Of a stretch of 64,000 nucleotides of DNA, positions 32,411 to 64,000 are shown piece after piece. Position numbers and translations under genes: made by a program. Position 1 is the first letter of the stretch; the number at the start of each line of letters is the position of its first letter. Below the pieces are notes generated by a model that did not search any database, was not told where the DNA came from, and was given only the letters and a program-made list of their open reading frames with translations. The stretch comes from Acidobacteriaceae bacterium (GTDB lineage Bacteria > Acidobacteriota > Terriglobia > Terriglobales > Acidobacteriaceae): contig JASHNW010000004.1 of the NCBI GenBank assembly GCA_030041435.1, forward strand, positions 1 to 64,000, given 5' to 3'.

Positions 32411-32489
32411 GAACTTCCTTCTTCTGCTGGAAATGCTCAGCCGCGCCAGCGGCCCTCTCTCCCTGTGCCCCGTTTCGACCGAGCGGAAA

Positions 32490-32598
32490 GGGTTTAGGGT
32501 ATAGGGATTAGGGTATAGAAAACCAGATGAGGCCCATAACTCTGCACGACGCCGCTAAACCCTAACCCCTAAACCCTGATCCCCAACCCCTAAGCCCT
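32490..32598. repeat. Inverted telomere-like heptamers (TTTAGGG/CCCTAAA) between parA and parB
   Basis: GGGTTTAGGGTATAGGGATT and following units at 32490-32518 are complementary to CTAAACCCTAACCCCTAAAC and following units at 32555-32598, with a 36-nt loop. A parA-parB transcript would carry a long hairpin here. 7-bp period. Confidence 0.75.
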
Positions 32599-32604
32599 GC
32601 CTTT

Positions 32605-33660: not shown

Positions 33661-33735
33661 TAGCGGGTAGCTGGGAGCTGGGAGCTGGGAGCTGGGAGCC
33701 GGGAGCTGGGAGCTGGGAGCTGGGAGCTGGTGGGA
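33661..33735 (+). repeat. GGGAGCT heptamer array, forward arm
   Basis: About nine near-perfect GGGAGCT units in tandem. Together with the inverse array at 34041-34099 it brackets the three parS sites. Confidence 0.85.
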
Positions 33736-34040: not shown

Positions 34041-34099
34041 CACCGGCTCCCAGCTACCGGCTCCCGGCTACCGGCTCCCAGCTCCCAGCTATCGCTAGC
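34041..34099 (-). repeat. AGCTCCC/GGCTACC heptamer array, inverse arm
   Basis: Units CGGCTCC, CAGCTAC, CGGCTCC, CGGCTAC, CGGCTCC, CAGCTCC and CAGCTAT, inverse to the array at 33661-33735. It runs into the last codons and stop of the LysR gene. Confidence 0.8.
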
Positions 34100-36203: not shown

Positions 36204-36207
36204 CCGT

Positions 36208-36272
36208 AGTGGATAGCCCGACAGCGGTTAGCGGATAGCCGGGCGGGCAGATAGCGGATAGCTGATAGCGGC
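36208..36272. repeat. GGATAGC heptamer array
   Basis: Units TGGATAG, GCGGTTA, GCGGATA, AGATAGC, GGATAGC and TGATAGC with a period of about 7 bp, just after the secreted-protein stop. Confidence 0.75.
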
Positions 36273-37146: not shown

Positions 37147-37188
37147 CCCACTCAAGCCAACAGAAGGCTTGAATGGGCCACCCGATTA
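37147..37188. repeat. REP-like unit (CAAGCC...GGCTTG), extragenic copy
   Basis: CCCACTCAAGCC-AACAGAA-GGCTTGAATGGGCCACCCG: a stem CAAGCC/GGCTTG with the shared tail. The same unit occurs twice inside folC (39566-39690). Confidence 0.8.
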
Positions 37189-37929: not shown

Positions 37930-38846
37930 CGTTTCCCTGCCTCCTCAGAAAGGCCCGTGGAAATGGCCTGTGGAGCTGTGACACGTTCTATCGTAGCCTG
38001 GCTTTGGACGGCGCTCCGACCCGGTTGGGCAGATACGGGCTGAGGCAGATGGGGGCGCTCGAGCCAGGAGTGCTCATAATACAACGCCTCGATGCGCTGT
38101 TGCAGAGTGGCGGTGAGAGCGTCGGCCTGTTTCATGGTCATGCCTTTGGTTTCAATCGGCTCGGAGACGACAAGGGTGACAGGGACGGGGTGGATTTGGG
38201 AGGAGTGGATGGGGAGCAGCTCCCAGGTGCCGATGAGGGCCATGGGGACGAGCGGGACCTGGGCCTTGATGGCCATGAAGGCGGGGCCTTTCATGAAGGG
38301 CTCGAGGTGGCCGGTCTCGGTGCGGCCGCCCTCGGGGAAGATGAAGAGGGGCAAGCCGGATTTGAGGGTGCGGACGGCGCCGAGCAGGCTGGCGATGGAG
38401 GCGCGAGGGTTGGAGAGATCGACGCCGACCTGGCCGGAGCGGTTGAGCCACCAGCCGATGAAGGGCATCTTCCAGAGGTCGTGACGGGCGACGATGCGGA
38501 ACTGGAAGGGGAGCGAGCTGAAGATGGCGGGCGTATCCATATAGGACAGGTGGTTGCAGGCGTAGACGGCGGGCTGCCCGGTGAGGCGCTCGGGGTGCAG
38601 GATGGTGATGCGCGCTCCGCTGAGGAAGATGCTGACGCGGGCCCAGGCCTGGGCGATGCGATGCTGGCGGCGGCCGCTTTTCTCGAACAACGAAACGAAC
38701 AGCGCGAGGCTGCCGTAGAGGGCGGTGGCGAGGAAGAAGAGCGGGGCGCGGCAGAGGTTGCTGACAAGGCGCTCGCCGAGGGGCAGCGGGTTGGGACGCG
38801 GGCCGAGGGGAACGGTTGCACGGCCGGGGCCGGATGCGGAGTTCAT
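37926..38846 (-). CDS. plsC: 1-acyl-sn-glycerol-3-phosphate acyltransferase
   Basis: 306 residues. An N-terminal membrane anchor (FFLATALYGSLALFVSLF) precedes the acyltransferase motifs: NHLSYMDTP (HX4D), FPEGGRTETGHL (FPEGxR, split) and VPLVPMALIGTWELLP. It transfers acyl chains to lysophosphatidate at the inner membrane. Both ends overlap neighbours by 4 bp (ATGA), indicating tight translational coupling with folC upstream and the C26 hydrolase downstream. Confidence 0.93.
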   Translation of the reverse strand: MNSASGPGRATVPLGPRPNPLPLGERLVSNLCRAPLFFLATALYGSLALFVSLFEKSGRRQHRIAQAWARVSIFLSGARITILHPERLTGQPAVYACNHLSYMDTPAIFSSLPFQFRIVARHDLWKMPFIGWWLNRSGQVGVDLSNPRASIASLLGAVRTLKSGLPLFIFPEGGRTETGHLEPFMKGPAFMAIKAQVPLVPMALIGTWELLPIHSSQIHPVPVTLVVSEPIETKGMTMKQADALTATLQQRIEALYYEHSWLERPHLPQPVSAQPGRSAVQSQATIERVTAPQAISTGLSEEAGKR

Positions 38847-40411
38847 AGGTTGGTCCCCGTGGTTGCGCCGAGCGAGAGGAGACGCTGCCGGACTTCGCCG
38901 ATGAGGTAGACGGAGCCGGCAACGACGATGAGGGCGCCGGGGGAAGCTGCGGCGAGGGCCTGGTCGAGCGCGTGGTGGGCGTCGGGGGCGGCGAGGGCGC
39001 GGGTACCGGTTTTGGCGGCGGCGTGGAGGAGCTCGTCGGCCGTGGCGGAGCGCGGAGAGGCGACGGGGGTGGCTATGACAAGTTCGAAAAGGGGAAAAAG
39101 GATCTGGGCCATTTCGTCGAAGGCCTTGTCGCGGAGGCAGCCGAAGACGAGGACAGCGGATAGAGGATAGCGGGCAGCGGCCAGAGAGGAGAGCGCGGCG
39201 CGGAGGGTCCAGACGCCGGCGGGGTTGTGGGCTACATCCATAAGGACAGGGATTAGGGACCAGGGATTAGGGATTAGGGGGCCAGGACCGGGAGATTTGT
39301 CGCTGAAGGCCGAGGGGGTGGGAAGCGAGAACAGTTCGAGGCGGCCGGGCCACTGGGTGTGGCGGATGCCGGCTTCGATGTGCGCTGCGGTGATTTTGTA
39401 ACCGTGATGGTTGCTTAATTCGACGGCGGCGGCGATGGCAAGGGCGATGTTGCGGCGCTGGTGCTCGCCGGCGAGGGGCGAATCGACCTGGATGGTTTCG
39501 TTGAGGACGTGGACCGGGTAGCGGTTGCGGAGCAGGGCAAAAGAGGGATTGGATGGGGCAGGCGGATCTGTCATCCCACTCAAGCCAGAAGCGGGCTTGA
39601 ATGGGCCACCCGGCATTGCGGGGTTGGATGGGGCACCCGGATCTGTCATCCCACTTAAGCCAAAAGCGGGGTTGGATGGGGCACCCGGATCGGGTGGTTC
39701 AAAGGGGATGTATTGGGCGGCGTTGATGGCGCGGACGTCGAGGTCCATGGCGATTTCGCCGATGGCCTGGTTGGCTTCGGGGTGCTGGGGAAGGGTGATG
39801 AGGATGCCGTTGCGGCGCAGGATGCCGGCCTTCTCGCGGGCGATAAGGGTGATGGTGTCGCCGAGCCACTCCATGTGGTCGAGGGAGACGTCAGTGATGA
39901 CGGAGAGGAGCGGGTCGACGATGTTGGTGGCGTCGAGGCGGCCGCCCATGCCGACTTCGAGGACGGCGATGTCGACCTGGGCTTCAGCGAGGGCGGCAAA
40001 GGCGAGGGCAGTGAGGGCTTCAAAGAAGCTGGGCGAGCCGGGCAGGCGGCCTTCGGCCACGAGGCGGTTGGCGCAGTCGTCGACGCGGAAGTAGTGGCGG
40101 GCGAAGTCGTCGTCGGAGATGGGCTGGCCGCAAATGCGGATGCGCTCATTGACGCGGGCGAGGTGCGGCGAGGTGTAGAGGCCGGTGCGGATGCCGGCGG
40201 ACGCGAGGATGGCGGCGAGGGTGGCGGAGGTAGATCCTTTGCCGTTGGTGCCGGCGACGAGGATGGAGCGGAAGCGGCGTTCGGGGTGGCCGAGGGCCTC
40301 GACGAGGGTGCGCATTTCTTCGAGGCGGAATTTGCGGCGGGGCTGGCCGGGCGATGTGTAGAGCTCGCCGGCGCGGGCATGGAGACTGTCGACGGCCGCC
40401 GTGTAGGACAT
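38843..40411 (-). CDS. folC: Folylpolyglutamate/dihydrofolate synthase with repeat-encoded insertions
   Basis: 522 residues from ATG 40411; the upstream frame to 40660 is antisense to a repeat. P-loop LVAGTNGKGSTSATLA, omega loop SPHLARVNERIR, VLEVGMGGRLDATN, DVSLDHMEWLG and the C-domain VLMDVAHNPAGVWT are all intact, so the enzyme is probably active (adds glutamate to folates). It is about 90 residues longer than usual. Extra residues at about 239-288 (GAPSNPAFGLSGMTDP and similar), 373-388 (PLIPNPWSLIP) and 405-418 (ARYPLSAVL) are encoded by repeats that are otherwise extragenic. First gene of the folC-plsC-C26 operon. Confidence 0.95.
   Translation of the reverse strand: MSYTAAVDSLHARAGELYTSPGQPRRKFRLEEMRTLVEALGHPERRFRSILVAGTNGKGSTSATLAAILASAGIRTGLYTSPHLARVNERIRICGQPISDDDFARHYFRVDDCANRLVAEGRLPGSPSFFEALTALAFAALAEAQVDIAVLEVGMGGRLDATNIVDPLLSVITDVSLDHMEWLGDTITLIAREKAGILRRNGILITLPQHPEANQAIGEIAMDLDVRAINAAQYIPFEPPDPGAPSNPAFGLSGMTDPGAPSNPAMPGGPFKPASGLSGMTDPPAPSNPSFALLRNRYPVHVLNETIQVDSPLAGEHQRRNIALAIAAAVELSNHHGYKITAAHIEAGIRHTQWPGRLELFSLPTPSAFSDKSPGPGPLIPNPWSLIPVLMDVAHNPAGVWTLRAALSSLAAARYPLSAVLVFGCLRDKAFDEMAQILFPLFELVIATPVASPRSATADELLHAAAKTGTRALAAPDAHHALDQALAAASPGALIVVAGSVYLIGEVRQRLLSLGATTGTNL
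39156..39196. repeat. GGATAGC-type heptamers inside folC
   Basis: ACAGCGGATAGAGGATAGCG and the following GGCAGCGGCC units match intergenic arrays elsewhere, but here encode ARYPLSAVL in frame. Confidence 0.75.
39246..39291. repeat. GGGATTA-type heptamers inside folC
   Basis: Units AGGGATT, AGGGACC, AGGGATT, AGGGATT and AGGGGGC (period 7) encode PLIPNPWSLIP immediately before the DVAHNP motif. The same family is at 32490-32518 and 58637-58665. Confidence 0.8.
39550..39695. repeat. REP-like units inside folC
   Basis: Two full units of about 50 bp (39566-39614, 39640-39690), each GGATCTGTCATCCCACT(C/T)AAGCC...GGG(C/G)TTG(A/G)ATGGG...CACCCGG, plus partial units. They are related to extragenic copies at 37147-37188 and 54714-54759. 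In frame, no stop codon. Confidence 0.85.
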
Positions 40412-40419
40412 GTCTTTAG

Positions 40420-40475
40420 CGTATAGCGGATAGCGGATAGCCGGGTAGCTCGGAGCTGGGAGCGGGTTGCTGGTT
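40420..40475. repeat. GGATAGC/GGGAGC heptamer array upstream of folC
   Basis: GTATAGCGGATAGCGGATAG and following units, then GAGCTGG and GAGCGGG. It covers the expected folC promoter region. Confidence 0.75.
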
Positions 40476-40653
40476 GCTCGATGAGCCTGGCGGTGCGCTG
40501 GCTGATGCTGCGGCGGCCTGCCCGATACCAAGGTATCGGCCGATACCTTCGTCTGATAGAGCCGGCGCGGGCGTGGCTGCACAATTCTGCTGGGTGACGC
40601 GCGCAGGGAACCAATCTGACCTCGATAAAAGCAAGCGAAAAGGGGGAAAGACC

Positions 40654-48400: not shown

Positions 48401-49071
48401 TGGCGGCGCTGAAGGAATTTTCGGATCTGGGCGCGGGCTTCAAGATTGCGGCGCTCGATCTGGAGCTGCGCGGCGCGGGCAATCTGCTGGGCGGGGAGCA
48501 GAGCGGGCACATCGAGGCAGTGGGGTTCGAGATGTACACGTCGATGCTGGAAGAAGCAGTGAGCAAGCTGAAGGGCGAGGAGCGCGTGGAACGGCCGCAG
48601 GTGCAGCTGAGCCTGGGGATCGCATTACGTATCGATGAAAGTTACATTTCCGAAGAGAACCAGCGGTTGCGCATGTACAAGCGGATTGCGGGGGTGGAGA
48701 GCGAGCGCGCGATCGAGGACGTGCGGACGGAGATGGAGGACCGGTATGGGCCGCTTCCGGCGAGCGTGGGACATCTGCTGGAGGCGGCGCGGCTGCGGCT
48801 TGAGTGCGAGCGGATCGGAGTCGCGCAGGTGGACCGGAAGCGGGAACAGCTGCACGTGAAGTTTACGGAGTCGGCGGCGGTGGATCCGGGACGGCTGATG
48901 AAGCTGGTGGCGAAGAACGCGAAGCGCGGGGCGCAGTTCACGCCGCAGGGGGTGCTGCGGTTCCCGATGGCGGCGGTGAAGGCGGAGGAGGTGCTGGCGG
49001 GGGTAAGAGGGCTGCTGGAGGAGCTGGCGGAAAGGGACAGCGTGCAGCGTTCAGCGATCAGCGTTCAGTGA
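45496..49071 (+). CDS. mfd: Transcription-repair coupling factor Mfd
   Basis: 1191 residues. UvrB-like N-terminal region (TDNKAADAMQLALQAG, LPAHDVLPFENLSPHPDIQE, GQFTRRGGILDVYSPE), RNA polymerase-interacting domain (VGDYVVHVEHGIAQYQGL), helicase motifs (LLCGDVGYGKTEVAM, PTTVLSFQHF, LLVVDEEQRFGVRHKE, MSATPIPRTLHMSL), TRG (GRVGRSNRRAYAYLL) and a C-terminal TRCF domain. It removes stalled RNA polymerase and recruits UvrA. ATG 45496 has a GAGATGG site. The last about ten residues (SVQRSAISVQ) and the stop codon are encoded by a TCAGCGx heptamer array. Confidence 0.97.
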   Translation: MILPFVRELLADMEHSPAFEQARRHLALARGRRRVSGLTSTARALYIPLFARAAGVPTLVVVTDNKAADAMQLALQAGAELTGAIPPDRVLRLPAHDVLPFENLSPHPDIQEQRAKTLWKIATGEAQIVVAPVEAAAMKLFPAPFYAGLAQILRRGEEVDVDTLLAHLTSIGYTRNDIVEMPGQFTRRGGILDVYSPEADRPVRFEFFGDEIESIRKFDPETQRSAAALDEARLLPLTETPVSERLLASVHARLSGARVESTDDPEMLEEAIAAGGVSVFPGWEFFAGVGGATGTLLDLFAKSTLFVEEPAMIRNQIDRWWSKVEQRHERSSIGSLMTPEDIYVRPELLQARLASHAGLDIDQLGAVDVLEEDETLGEIEFTSRPTLRFHGSIPALVEQIRTLMQQEVRTLLVAPNQGEVERLATLLREYELPYRLGSRVLHAGSENIYDESSYLAGDMRTPVILRTALASGVSLPDARLVLFGAQDFFDEADVTARPAPKKSKTAAFVSDFRDLAVGDYVVHVEHGIAQYQGLREIEQDGISLEFMILEFAESARLYIPLTRLDLIQKYRSTESGPAPVLNRLGSQQWSRTKARVKKAMEDMADELLKLYAQRKAAEGHAFPPDNEFQREFEDAFDYNETEDQTAAIADIKRDMESPLPMDRLLCGDVGYGKTEVAMRAAFKAVQDGRQVAVLTPTTVLSFQHFETFKNRFRQFPINIEMISRFRTPKEQKLILERVETGKVDILIGTHRLLSKDIKFHNLGLLVVDEEQRFGVRHKERLKQMRREIDVLAMSATPIPRTLHMSLVGLRDMSVIETPPRDRMAIQTVVAKFDEKLIRSAIEVELERGGQVYFVHNRVETIYEIAAKIQEMAPSARVAVGHGQMGENDLEKVMLAFMHHEHDVLVATTIIENGLDIPMANTIIVNRADRHGLSELYQLRGRVGRSNRRAYAYLLIPPEQELTDVARRRLAALKEFSDLGAGFKIAALDLELRGAGNLLGGEQSGHIEAVGFEMYTSMLEEAVSKLKGEERVERPQVQLSLGIALRIDESYISEENQRLRMYKRIAGVESERAIEDVRTEMEDRYGPLPASVGHLLEAARLRLECERIGVAQVDRKREQLHVKFTESAAVDPGRLMKLVAKNAKRGAQFTPQGVLRFPMAAVKAEEVLAGVRGLLEELAERDSVQRSAISVQ

Positions 49072-49155
49072 TCAGCGGATAGCGGGTAGTAAAAGCGCGG
49101 CACGGGCAGCGTTCAGCAGGGACAGCGATCAGGTTTCAGCGGCGCAGCAGTCAGG
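49036..49155. repeat. TCAGCGx heptamer array spanning the mfd stop
   Basis: CAGCGTT, CAGCGAT, CAGCGTT, CAGTGAT, CAGCGGA, TAGCGGG ... then CAGCGTT, CAGCAGG and CAGCGATCAGG. It begins inside the mfd reading frame. Confidence 0.8.
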
Positions 49156-49533: not shown

Positions 49534-51696
49534 TCAGGTTGTCTGGGGAGGATGCAGATCCGCTGGATTCGCCTGCGCGTCGCCAGACGGCCGTTGCAAT
49601 TCGTCACGATTATTGACCGCGTCTTGAACAATCTTTATGAGTTCCGGCTCTGCTGCCTCTCCGAAGCGCCGCACCACCTCGTCGTACACCGCGACGGCGT
49701 CCTCGTTTCGGCTCAGCGCCTCCAGCGTAGCCCCCTTGTTGAATAGCGCCGTCGCCACCTGCTCCCGCAGCCCGGGTTCGGGAGCCTCTCCAAACCGGCG
49801 CACCACCTCGTCGCACAACGCGATGGCGTCCTCGCTCCGATTCAACCCTCCCAGCGTCCATCCCTTGTTGACCAGTGCCCTCGCCACCGGCTCCCGCAAC
49901 TCAGCCTCGGCGGCCTCCCCAAACCGGCGTACCACCTCGTCATATGCCGCGATCTCCTCTTCGCTCCGGCTCAGCGCCCCCAGCGTGACTCCCTTGTTGT
50001 AAAGCGCCCACGCCACCTGCTCCCGCAGCTCAGTCTCCGCAGCCTCTCCAAAACGGCGCACTACCTCGCCGTAGACCGCGATCTCCTCTTCGCTCCGGTC
50101 CAGCGCCCCCAGCCTCACCCCCTTGTTGAACAGCGCTTTCGCCACCTGCTCCCGCAGCCCGGTCTCGGCGGCATCCCCGAAGCGGCGAATTACCTCATCG
50201 TAGACCGCGATGGCGTCCTCGCTCCGGTTCAGTGCCCCCAGGGAATACGCCTTTCGGAGCAGCGGGATCGCAATCAGTTTCGACGACCTGATCTCCGCGT
50301 CACCACGCTGAGCGAGTACCTCGGATGCCGAGTCCACAACGTCGGCGAGCGACACCTGGGCAGACCAGTTCCCGTCAGCCCGGAAATCAACCCCCGCCAG
50401 ACTGCTGACCAGCTCACGCAAGTGCGAAATGGAAAGCTCGCTGAACGTCATCCCCGATGCCTCCTGCAGCGCCGCAGGATAGTTCGCCTGCCTCACTGCG
50501 TTACGGAAAGCCTCCATTTGCCGGTCGACAAGGGCGGGCGGAGCCTGGACGGCCTGGTGCTTCTCGAGGCTACTCAGATTCTTAAGGCGTTCGACAATGC
50601 TGAGGATCGAATACTTATCGTTCACCTGCTGAAATGCGGCTCCTGCGCCAATAAGGGATTTCTCCAGGTGCTGTGCGAAAAAGCCGACGGGATCGTCGAT
50701 GAGAGGGGGATTCTCCGGCTTCAGCTCTTCGATCAGCGATTCGAAGACGGCGGTGGCAGACAGAGCCGCGTTCGCGTTATCTCCGGTCGCGAGTCCAAAA
50801 GCCCTGGGGTTTGCCTCCCGGCCCGGGTTTCCCTGGGAAGCATCTGCGGGGGAACGGACAGCCTTCTCCGTGGCGGAGACGCCGGGTTGCTCGGGCAAAA
50901 CGAACCGAACGTCCGGATGGTCTTTCAGCCACGCCGGAAGCGCCGCAAAGCTCTCCCTTCTATAGCAGAACCAGTACAGGTTGGTGCCGAGGGAGCCAGT
51001 AAGGCGATTTTTGAGCGCGGCCATGAATACGTCACCTTCCCAACCGCTATATCCGACAACGAGAGGGGAGTGTGCATGGAGGATGGAGTCGAGCCGCGAT
51101 CGCATGGTGGCCGGGGCGTCGTTCGAATATTGCGCCCGCGCGTCGATTTCGCCGCGGAGGTTGCAGCAGTCGTAGGCCCAGAACGAGCCGTGGACGTGAA
51201 GAACCTTGAGGTCTTTCGACTCGGCGTCGATACGGCCGACCGTAGCGGGGCTGTCGCATACGATGGGGCGTTCGCCGAAGAGCAGAAGCGCCCTGGTCAG
51301 TAAGTCATCGAAATTTGCCGTTACAGCGAGTTTTGCTATGCGTCCACTGAGCAGAAGATGGGCAAGCCGAAAGTTTGCCTGCGATATGACCGCACTCTCC
51401 ATGATCTGGCGGAGGAAGTGCTGGCGCTCCTGCCGGCCGGGAAAGGCAGCCTGAAACCAATGAGAGTAAGACTCAAGGGCAGAGCAGCCTGCCGCAGGCG
51501 GGTTTTTTTTGTAGCGCTCAGCCCGCTGCCGACACTGCGCTTCGACGTCGGAGGCGAGAGGTACGGGCGGGTACGAGATGCCCGCACCGACGAAGAAAAA
51601 GAAGGGAGATTGCGGGTCTTTTGCCGTGCGTTCTGCCCAATCATCCAGCGTCTGATGAATCTCAACGACCGCGGTCTTCAGGTCTGTCTGAGGCAT
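49534..51696 (-). CDS. SIR2-like NADase-type protein with five tandem 43-residue TPR-like repeats
   Basis: 720 residues from ATG 51696 (a TTG at 51705 is possible). The N-terminal SIR2-like domain has FFFFVGAGISYPPVP (residues 32-46), TANFDDLL with Asn128, and LHVHGSFW with His169, the residues expected for NAD+ cleavage. A middle helical region (about 290-465) follows, then five nearly identical 43-residue units (NKGVTLGALSRSEEEIA, YDEVVRRFGEAAE) and a short tail. SIR2 plus a repeat sensor is the plan of many anti-phage NAD-depleting proteins; the target sensed here is unknown. Located in an accessory pocket next to an orphan antitoxin. Confidence 0.85.
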   Translation of the reverse strand: MPQTDLKTAVVEIHQTLDDWAERTAKDPQSPFFFFVGAGISYPPVPLASDVEAQCRQRAERYKKNPPAAGCSALESYSHWFQAAFPGRQERQHFLRQIMESAVISQANFRLAHLLLSGRIAKLAVTANFDDLLTRALLLFGERPIVCDSPATVGRIDAESKDLKVLHVHGSFWAYDCCNLRGEIDARAQYSNDAPATMRSRLDSILHAHSPLVVGYSGWEGDVFMAALKNRLTGSLGTNLYWFCYRRESFAALPAWLKDHPDVRFVLPEQPGVSATEKAVRSPADASQGNPGREANPRAFGLATGDNANAALSATAVFESLIEELKPENPPLIDDPVGFFAQHLEKSLIGAGAAFQQVNDKYSILSIVERLKNLSSLEKHQAVQAPPALVDRQMEAFRNAVRQANYPAALQEASGMTFSELSISHLRELVSSLAGVDFRADGNWSAQVSLADVVDSASEVLAQRGDAEIRSSKLIAIPLLRKAYSLGALNRSEDAIAVYDEVIRRFGDAAETGLREQVAKALFNKGVRLGALDRSEEEIAVYGEVVRRFGEAAETELREQVAWALYNKGVTLGALSRSEEEIAAYDEVVRRFGEAAEAELREPVARALVNKGWTLGGLNRSEDAIALCDEVVRRFGEAPEPGLREQVATALFNKGATLEALSRNEDAVAVYDEVVRRFGEAAEPELIKIVQDAVNNRDELQRPSGDAQANPADLHPPQTT
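49640..50285 (-). repeat. Five 129-bp tandem repeats within the SIR2 gene
   Basis: The word GA(T/C)(G/C)(G/T)C(G/C)TC... recurs at 49693, 49822, 49951, 50080 and 50209, exactly 129 bp apart. It encodes the 43-residue TPR-like units with high nucleotide identity, indicating recent expansion. Confidence 0.9.
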
Positions 51697-54713: not shown

Positions 54714-54759
54714 CACCCGCTACGCCCACCCGAGCAACACCGGCTCGGATGGGGCACCC
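54714..54759 (+). repeat. 46-bp direct repeat, copy A
   Basis: Repeated at 55011-55056. Contains CCGAGC-AACACCG-GCTCGG and the tail GGATGGGGCACCC, which is shared with the units inside folC. Confidence 0.85.
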
Positions 54760-54773
54760 ACATTGTTCGCGAG

Positions 54774-54945
54774 CCGGGGCTAAAGCCCCCGTCTTTGAAC
54801 CGCCACGATGTCCCCGGCTTAAAAGCCGGGGCTTCTACCGTCGATGCGCTGCGCGCATCCCGCCACGCGGACAGGGGCTGAAGCCCCGTTTTCTTTCGCG
54901 GCTTTGTCGGCACGACTGAAGTCGTGCCCTGATACAACGGCTCCT
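54774..54945. repeat. Cluster of REP-like palindromes
   Basis: CCCCGGCTT-AA-AAGCCGGGG (54812-54831), GGGGCT-GA-AGCCCC (54874-54887) and GGCACGACT-GA-AGTCGTGCC (54909-54928) followed by CTGATACAAC. The same words occur at 35181-35467. The gap 54699-55337 has no gene. Confidence 0.85.
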
Positions 54946-63872: not shown

Positions 63873-63878
63873 ATTGTA
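63873..63878 (-). promoter_or_regulatory. -10 element TACAAT, leaderless pheS promoter candidate
   Basis: Minus-strand TACAAT ends 7 nt before ATG 63865; the upstream DNA is a GGATAGC array, so no -35 is evident. Confidence 0.45.
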
Positions 63879-63909
63879 GCGGTTAGCGGATAGCGGTTAG
63901 CGGATAGCA
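63879..63909. repeat. GCGGTTA/GCGGATA heptamer array
   Basis: AGCGGTTAGCGGATAGCGGT and following TAGCGGATAGC: four units with strict 7-bp period, directly abutting the pheS promoter. The last 90 bp of the window hold only REP-like words (GCATCTGCC-AAAAGC-GGGCAGACGC). Confidence 0.8.
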
Positions 63910-64000
63910 ACGGCGGATGCGTTGCGCGCATTTTCCCGCATCTGCCAAAAGCGGGCAGACGCGGGGCACCCGGCGCATCAGGCGAGGACGGCGATTTCTG

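Follow-up and report, generated by a model that had tools for sequence, protein, structure and literature searches.

Loop 1 of an acidobacterial FolC as a probable recurrent landing site for dispersed extragenic repeats

Results

folC and its three repeat-filled loops

The DNA analysed here, referred to as the window, comprises 64,000 nt (positions 1 to 64,000 of contig JASHNW010000004.1) from an Acidobacteriaceae bacterium, and all feature coordinates count from its first letter. It carries folC on its minus strand, a gene that, according to an original prediction made from the letters alone, had absorbed three different families of extragenic repeats in frame. The presence of all three was confirmed (Table 1): two copies of a unit resembling a repetitive extragenic palindrome (REP), an array of GGGATTA heptamers and an array of GGATAGC heptamers. 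The REP-like copies (39545-39613 and 39620-39688, 69 nt each) were 88% identical, and the core hairpin of the first gave, on the gene strand, a predicted RNA fold of -22.7 kcal/mol, calculated without a shuffle control.

Both Mur_ligase_M and Mur_ligase_C scored above their cut-offs in the translation, in which the P-loop GTNGKGS, VGMGG and DVAHNP were all intact, as had been claimed. The closest structures to a model of the protein were solved folylpolyglutamate synthases (FPGS)/FolC (best PDB match 2vor, E 4.4e-34). On the middle and C-terminal Mur-ligase domains, the P-loop and the FPGS/FolC fold, the protein belongs to FolC. The gene was the single FolC match in its own genome (E <= 0.001) and sits on a 162-kb contig whose nearest end is about 38 kb away. 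By alignment with relatives, loop 1 was placed between NAAxY(V/I)P and (L)RNRYP, loop 2 between WPGRLE and VLLDVAHNP (VLMDVAHNP in the window FolC), and loop 3 between RAALSSL and VLVFG. In an AlphaFold2 model (49 sequences; mean predicted local distance difference test score, pLDDT, 87.6), residues 251-289 of loop 1 formed the only segment of at least three residues with a pLDDT below 50. By blocks of ten, loop 2 scored 62-79 and loop 3 scored 74; other low values were seen at residues 11-30 (71-72) and at the C-terminal end (31). The alignment placed the inserts in these three loops, the first of which is predicted by the model to be disordered. With its motifs intact, a single match in the genome and a confident fold outside loops and termini, folC showed no sign of being a pseudogene.

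Table 1. Features of the folC locus and related repeats in the window
Feature	Coordinates	Strand	Basis
folC, folylpolyglutamate/dihydrofolate synthase, 522 aa, three repeat-filled loops	38843..40411	-	Open reading frame (ORF), Mur_ligase_M/C, closest folds solved FPGS/FolC
Loop 1 insert: two 69-nt REP-like copies and partial end, about FolC residues 240-289	39545..39694	-	Direct repeat, own-genome matches, missing from 10 readable congeners
REP core hairpin, first copy, CCCACTCAAGCC ... GGCTTGAATGGGCCACCC	39575..39612	+	Query 31-68 of REP-block genome search
REP core hairpin, second copy, right arm decayed	39650..39687	+	Direct repeat, aligned copies
Loop 2 GGGATTA/CCCTAAT heptamers, read as GPLIPNPWSLIPV; would-be TAA codon is TGG	39247..39282 (about)	-	Lag-7 array
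Loop 3 GGATAGC/CGCTATC heptamers, read as AARYPLSA	39151..39186 (about)	-	Lag-7 array
Heptamer array (GGATAGC type and others) directly 5' of folC ATG	40412..40480	.	Lag-7 array
Intergenic copy of folC REP unit	37147..37184	+	89% to folC copy; outside predicted genes
Intergenic REP of a second, related type (CCCACCCGAGC...GCTCGGATGGGGCACCC), also found on both sides of a Y1 transposase gene outside the window	54714..54760	+	
Intergenic GGGATTA/GGGTTTA-type heptamers, both orientations	32489..32599	.	Outside predicted genes
Intergenic GGATAGC heptamers	36207..36271	+	Outside predicted genes

Dispersed copies in the same genome

The repeats within folC recur elsewhere in the DNA around it. In the window, GGGATTAGGGATTA (<=2 mismatches) was found 8 times against 0.14 expected from shuffled sequence and GGATAGCGGATAGC 20 times against 0.46, folC copies being counted in both; TGGGGCACCCGGATC was found 5 times, 3 of them in folC, against 0.37. 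The same units had been proposed to occur in four intergenic gaps. This held for 37147, which carries the same REP (89%), while the arrays at 32490 and 36208 are variants of the heptamers; the REP at 54714 proved to be of a different subfamily, having the TGGGGCACCC end in common with the folC REP and a different palindrome core. All four places lie outside predicted genes.

Searches were extended to the 5.77-Mb genome of the window. (G-codes below denote genomes, G000 being the window's own, and L-codes denote gene or locus rows; genes around repeat copies were called with a home-made gene finder and are termed predicted genes.) The REP block gave 17 other matches, some overlapping (best other E 5.3e-12), bearing out that the loop DNA matches extragenic repeats, and units took the form CCCACTCAAGCC-loop-GGCTTGAATGGGCCAC(CC). 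All 16 matches checked (15 listed and window 37147, with C90 left out) lay outside predicted genes. In a 407-kb sample of the genome, blastn with the block returned 27 matches (best 8.5e-13), against 4 in all for the reversed gene (best 0.003). The folC REP is therefore a REP in the general sense of a short imperfect palindrome dispersed in extragenic DNA. Neither tetranucleotide of the GTAG/CGTC REP superfamilies was present at either end of the common core when aligned copies were inspected by eye, and assignment to these superfamilies was rejected. A 14-mer count along folC was dropped as a repeat measure, being swamped by codon-bias words.

For the heptamers, GGGATTAGGGATTAGGG (<=1 mismatch) gave 19 matches in the genome, corresponding to 11 merged sites besides folC; none was interior to a predicted gene, and five overlapped a gene 3' end by 1-15 nt. 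A sample of 408,915 bases with 333 predicted genes, non-random in that stretches were partly picked for holding REPs, contained 33 lag-7 arrays (16/21), 25 intergenic and 8 'genic'. Of the latter, two were interior to folC, one was the leader of folC, two lay at the ends of genes, and the remaining three look to us like chance. At 28/22, 17 arrays were found in 409 kb, 15 intergenic and 2 at gene termini. These heptamers fit the description of dispersed heptameric tandem repeats, 7-bp arrays that are over-represented and mainly intergenic.

The same loops in congeners and other relatives

The REP block was absent from loop 1 of all 10 congeners in which this loop could be read, and the inserts are thus not common to close relatives; in the eleventh, G011 (L009), an NN gap at loop 1 breaks the frame, and a similar gap at loop 1 occurs in record L077, Acidobacterium sp. 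palsa_343. Going beyond the original prediction, the same loops were found to hold different repeats in different species. Loop 1 contained CAGCGTT heptamers in G005, G002 and G008, CAGGTTA in G006, CAGCAGC in G010 and, in G007, a REP of another kind than that of G000; no repeat was recognised there in G001, G003, G004 or G009. In the five heptamer-bearing congeners the DNA just 5' of loop 1 was 89-94% identical (85 columns), and the loops, of similar length, held three different heptamers. The REP of G007 was missing from its near relatives L010 and L014. In G029, a member of another genus, loop 1 carried a REP unit of the G000 family (89% over 35 nt, with similar residues), and two changes were required on the tree for these two REP-bearing rows, well supported branches forcing each of them. 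More widely, loop 1 is long in many lineages and short in many relatives, and its sequence varies greatly among species.

Whole-genome searches, used in place of small samples, covered six loops and two heptamers. The loop-1 DNA of six genomes was searched against its source genome at E 0.01-0.1, the weakest matches being short and no equally long core-DNA control being run. Further matches were found in all six: 17 in G000, 10 in G029 (one of them a 17-nt match outside the hairpin), 41 in G007 (best 95%), 13 in G017, 37 in G081 (Granulicella sp. metagenome-assembled genome (MAG), L075) and 23 in G118 (L393), the last chosen beforehand from its loop peptide. At least four kinds of repeat are represented: the G000/G029 REP, the G007 REP, the G017 element and the double palindromes of G081 and G118, which are of similar plan with only 14 nt in common. 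Of 10 other REP sites checked in G007, 9 were intergenic and 1 lay in a predicted gene near its start. The G017 loop repeat gave no match in G047, and the resemblance of the L007 loop to it marks that loop as a candidate.

Some loops were noted by appearance. Those of L019 and L029 look palindromic, and loop 1 of L358 and L362 reads HSERSEES and HSESSEES, from GTCATTCCGAG-type DNA, which resembles a widespread environmental palindromic repeat. Palindromes at window 54770-54830 (GGCTAAAGCCCC / CCGGCTTAAAAGCCGG) are, by eye, like the loop-1 repeat of the Granulicella MAG FolC.

The load of two heptamers was counted across the genus, in 12 genomes. The CAGCGTT search (CAGCGTTCAGCGTTCAG, <=1 mismatch; the counts take in overlapping matches and those in folC) gave 107 matches in G005, 76 in G010, 61 in G011, 58 in G006, 41 in G008, 39 in G000, 27 in G002, 21 in G009, 5 each in G004 and G007, 2 in G001 and none in G003. 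The CAGGTTA search (CAGGTTACAGGTTACAG) gave 83 in G010, 56 in G006, 40 in G011, 23 in G008, 20 in G005 and at most 5 in the rest; both reversed patterns gave none in any of the 12 genomes. All five congeners with loop-1 heptamers had at least 27 CAGCGTTCAGCGTTCAG matches, and the four genomes with 5 or fewer had no loop-1 heptamers; G000 and G009, however, hold such matches yet carry no loop-1 heptamers.

Survey of the FolC family

A FolC match was obtained in 80 of the 81 genomes of a first set. A widened search of 160 genomes found no match within the threshold in 13 of them. It newly matched 110 genomes, of which 101 were used and 9 left out. The resulting survey comprised 152 FolC genes from 151 genomes, namely 145 rows of the window's family and 7 named acidobacterial records, of which one is a duplicate; rows L071 and L305 of the survey are one gene, and duplicates L303 and L291-L297 were taken out. 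L009 (NN gap) was omitted from the loop comparison of relatives and the hairpin count, and L079, whose motif was not found, from both of these and from the early 60-gene run count. L077 was left out of the 58-row tree, and L009, L319 and L364 out of the 149-row tree.

The survey yielded 24 lag-7 arrays, of which 20 lay in loop 1 (19 genes, including L352 of the single-contig genome G198), 1 in loop 2, 2 in loop 3 and 1 in an extra insertion of L075. The three loops, which make up 9.1% of the bases counted, therefore held 23 of the 24; in an earlier 59-gene set they held 11 of 12. Lags 5, 8, 10, 11 and 13, the only others run, gave no arrays in the 152 genes; lag 6 gave 5 runs in the 60 genes of the early set. 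The survey tells where arrays survive, not where they arrive. On a 149-row FastTree built without the loops, the presence or absence of a repeat required at least 16 changes, 11 of them forced by well supported branches, gains and losses being counted alike; on a 58-row tree 7 changes were needed, 6 of them so forced. 'Dispersed' labels on the larger tree were given to 15 rows, 5 on the basis of DNA and 10 from peptide resemblance.

A 7-bp unit runs through all three frames. The consensus unit was stop-free in the sense strand of 23 of the 24 arrays, and six of those 23 had a stop in the antisense strand. As genes entered the survey as open frames and several arrays are kin to each other, this count is weak on its own as a sign of frame filtering; about 69% of all heptamers have no stop. 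More telling is loop 2 of the window FolC, in which an unbroken CCCTAAT array would read GPLIPNP* and the in-frame TAA is TGG. The CCCTGGT unit may have formed within folC or entered it as a variant; none of the other own-genome loci examined contained GGGACCAGGG.

Y1 transposase genes and further repeats of the window

The genome contains two Y1_Tnp genes. One, RAYT-like (REP-associated tyrosine transposase; L070:1368-2195, G000:C50), has REPs on both sides, inverted and in tandem (CCCATCCGAGC.../...GCTCGGATGGGGCACCC), of the same type as that at window 54714. Beside the second lie tandem repeats (L069:1689-1806, G000:C106) of ACCGCTG/ACCGCCG-like units with 22 and 15 bp spacing. In the short flanks covered, no folC-type unit was found at L069, and L070 gave nothing beyond a partial match (72%) to the other REP type.

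Elsewhere in the window, CAGCGTT-type heptamers (49034-49078) encode SVQRSAISVQ, with which the product of a long predicted gene ends, and GGATAGC/GGTTAGC heptamers (63874-63911) lie at the predicted N-terminus of a minus-strand gene. AGCTGGG and CCGGCTC arrays were seen at 33662-33730 and 34042-34090, and a tandem repeat with a 129-bp unit (4.6 copies, 78% matches) at 49648-50241.

Discussion

It is highly probable that loop 1 of FolC is a recurrent, disordered and permissive landing site into which dispersed repeats are copied, where they survive when readable and are turned over. This extends the earlier proposal of mobile or copied repeats and of tolerance by the FolC loops, which is supported here; mobility is suggested by the dispersed copies. 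Under this explanation, the peripheral loop 1 and two lesser loops of FolC in Acidobacteriaceae would repeatedly take up dispersed extragenic repeats of the host genome. REP-like hairpins would probably arrive by transposition or copying; heptamer arrays could be copied, could form by slippage or could be exchanged with other arrays. Since FolC is single-copy here and presumably needed, an insertion would survive only with the frame kept and no stop; once translated as part of the enzyme, it would be nearly neutral and would decay, give way to another repeat or be lost. Inverted REPs of the second type on both sides of the Y1 gene at L070 make a RAYT-like route plausible for REPs; the folC-type REP itself could be linked to no transposase.

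Several results weigh against this explanation. No insertion event or target-site duplication was seen, no junction being near enough for a duplication to be read, and the folC-type REP brackets neither Y1_Tnp gene within the short flanks fetched. No translated loop peptide was seen either. Labelling recognised no repeat in 116 of the 149 loops. Perfect hairpins (stem >=9) were too rare to serve as evidence: loop 1 had 2 in 3.3 kb and the core had 9 in 73 kb. The contrast between the REP block and the rest of folC is not absolute, because folC outside loop 1 also gave 11 blastn matches in the own-genome sample (best 1.1e-5). The GGGATTA pattern, whose reversed control is the same string, gave none in 407 kb of that sample. 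In small samples of nine relatives only loop 1 of G010 was matched (8 matches), the loops of G029, G017, G047, G005, G011, G008, G006 and G002 remaining unmatched; the loop-1 heptamers of G005, G008, G002, G006 and G012 gave none in samples of 58-160 kb, and those of G012 were never found elsewhere.

Local birth of the heptamer arrays, by slippage within the loop itself and with their extragenic likeness due to a genome-wide slippage bias, is possible, though we doubt it. Lag 7 alone gave arrays among the lags run in the family set (lags 6 and 9 being outside that set) and, with multiples of 3 set aside, ranks first in the own-genome sample; polymerase slippage has also been put forward, in the available text of PMC4692102, as a cause of heptamer excess. 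The CAGCGTT and CAGGTTA units are, however, common to dozens of dispersed matches in the same genome with none for the reversed patterns, and REPs and other dispersed repeats would be left unexplained. That loop 1 is a natural recorder of repeat activity, a preferred site that samples each lineage's active repeats in frame, seems rather improbable: G010 has 83 CAGGTTA and 76 CAGCGTT matches and carries CAGCAGC in its loop, so that loop 1 is no plain mirror of abundance, and G006 has both heptamers in like number with only CAGGTTA in its loop. A physical hot spot, either a Y1/RAYT target or a template-switch site, is likewise unlikely. Different repeat classes do recur in loop 1 across many lineages, folC was by eye the only gene in the 409-kb sample with interior heptamer arrays of extragenic types, and one of the two Y1_Tnp genes is bracketed by inverted REPs; but loops 2 and 3 are also hit, mere survival of repeats in a tolerant loop would give the same picture, and a target motif or duplication was not found. 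Heptamers and direct repeats are not known to be targets of Y1 transposases.

A selected function, with loop length or charge tuning FolC or with DNA or RNA hairpins regulating folC expression, appears quite unlikely given the divergence of loop sequences between species, the many relatives with short loops and the predicted disorder; in its favour are the long loop 1 of many lineages and the suggestion, in the part of PMC3733652 available, that REPs are plausibly transcribed and act as RNA elements. Repeat mis-assembly or a decayed pseudogene was already disfavoured and is scarcely credible: most genomes used are contig assemblies, and an NN gap falls at loop 1 of G011, yet the window gene keeps its frame, motifs and single copy far from a contig end, and loop-1 arrays recur across the family, a single-contig genome included. 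A tolerant loop supplied by dispersed repeats is retained as the best explanation.

Precedents exist for parts of this picture. The accessible text of PMC3733652 describes GTAG/CGTC REPs in frame inside ORFs of several species, their insertions being perhaps neutral in flexible linkers or loops, and their recurrence in one gene (uvrA in O. terrae and Thioalkalivibrio, uvrB in R. conorii); 'folC' is absent from its main text. The folC REP resembles these as a short imperfect palindrome that is mostly extragenic and sometimes in frame, but has no tag by eye, and the FolC loop takes several unrelated repeats, heptamers included, in many species. The same source reports acidobacterial TIRYT, Y1 transposases with flanking repeats in the phylum, whereas the folC-type REP was found beside neither Y1_Tnp gene here. 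Rickettsia palindromic elements (RPEs), as presented in the portion of PMC2229807 consulted, are Rickettsia-specific palindromes of 105-146 bp in 19 reading frames, and an RPE-bearing Gmk was reported to be translated and active with altered substrate affinity. In-frame residence in a conserved protein gene is common to both, translation of the folC repeats being predicted; in contrast, cores of about 38 bp and several repeat kinds converge on one loop here, and identity with RPEs was rejected, as the common core (about 35-40 bp) is too short and Acidobacteria are the closest named relatives.

In the excerpts available, the heptameric tandem repeats described from Xanthomonas/Nostoc (PMC4692102) and the TAACTGA repeats described from Beggiatoaceae (PMC4679880) are dispersed and mainly intergenic, and GGGATTA resembles the G-quadruplex (G4)-forming GGGAATC and GGGGA(C/T)T types of these papers; the FolC arrays differ in that a single enzyme holds them, in homologous loops. 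According to the text seen of PMC9879509, Borg tandem repeats create disordered protein regions. The FolC repeats likewise give nucleotide repeats that would encode disordered segments, but their 7-bp units cycle through the frames and match extragenic families. RU elements (PMC2759123, seen in part) belong to the same literature. Among the papers listed by a literature search whose coverage excluded most subscription journals, none dealt with the uptake of repeats by FolC loops and none reported unrelated repeat classes, heptamers included, caught in one loop. In-frame REPs and RPEs are already known, and one gene may carry them in more than one species; what appears new, as judged from sequence, is the gathering of unrelated repeat classes in one FolC loop.

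The finding indicates a site in FolC that permits insertions. It also suggests that heptamer arrays, which as a rule lie between genes, can turn coding when stops are avoided. One loop of a conserved enzyme, filled with different repetitive DNA in many lineages, would amount to a repeated natural experiment, in which the fate of coding repeats, from arrival and frame filtering to decay and replacement, may become countable.

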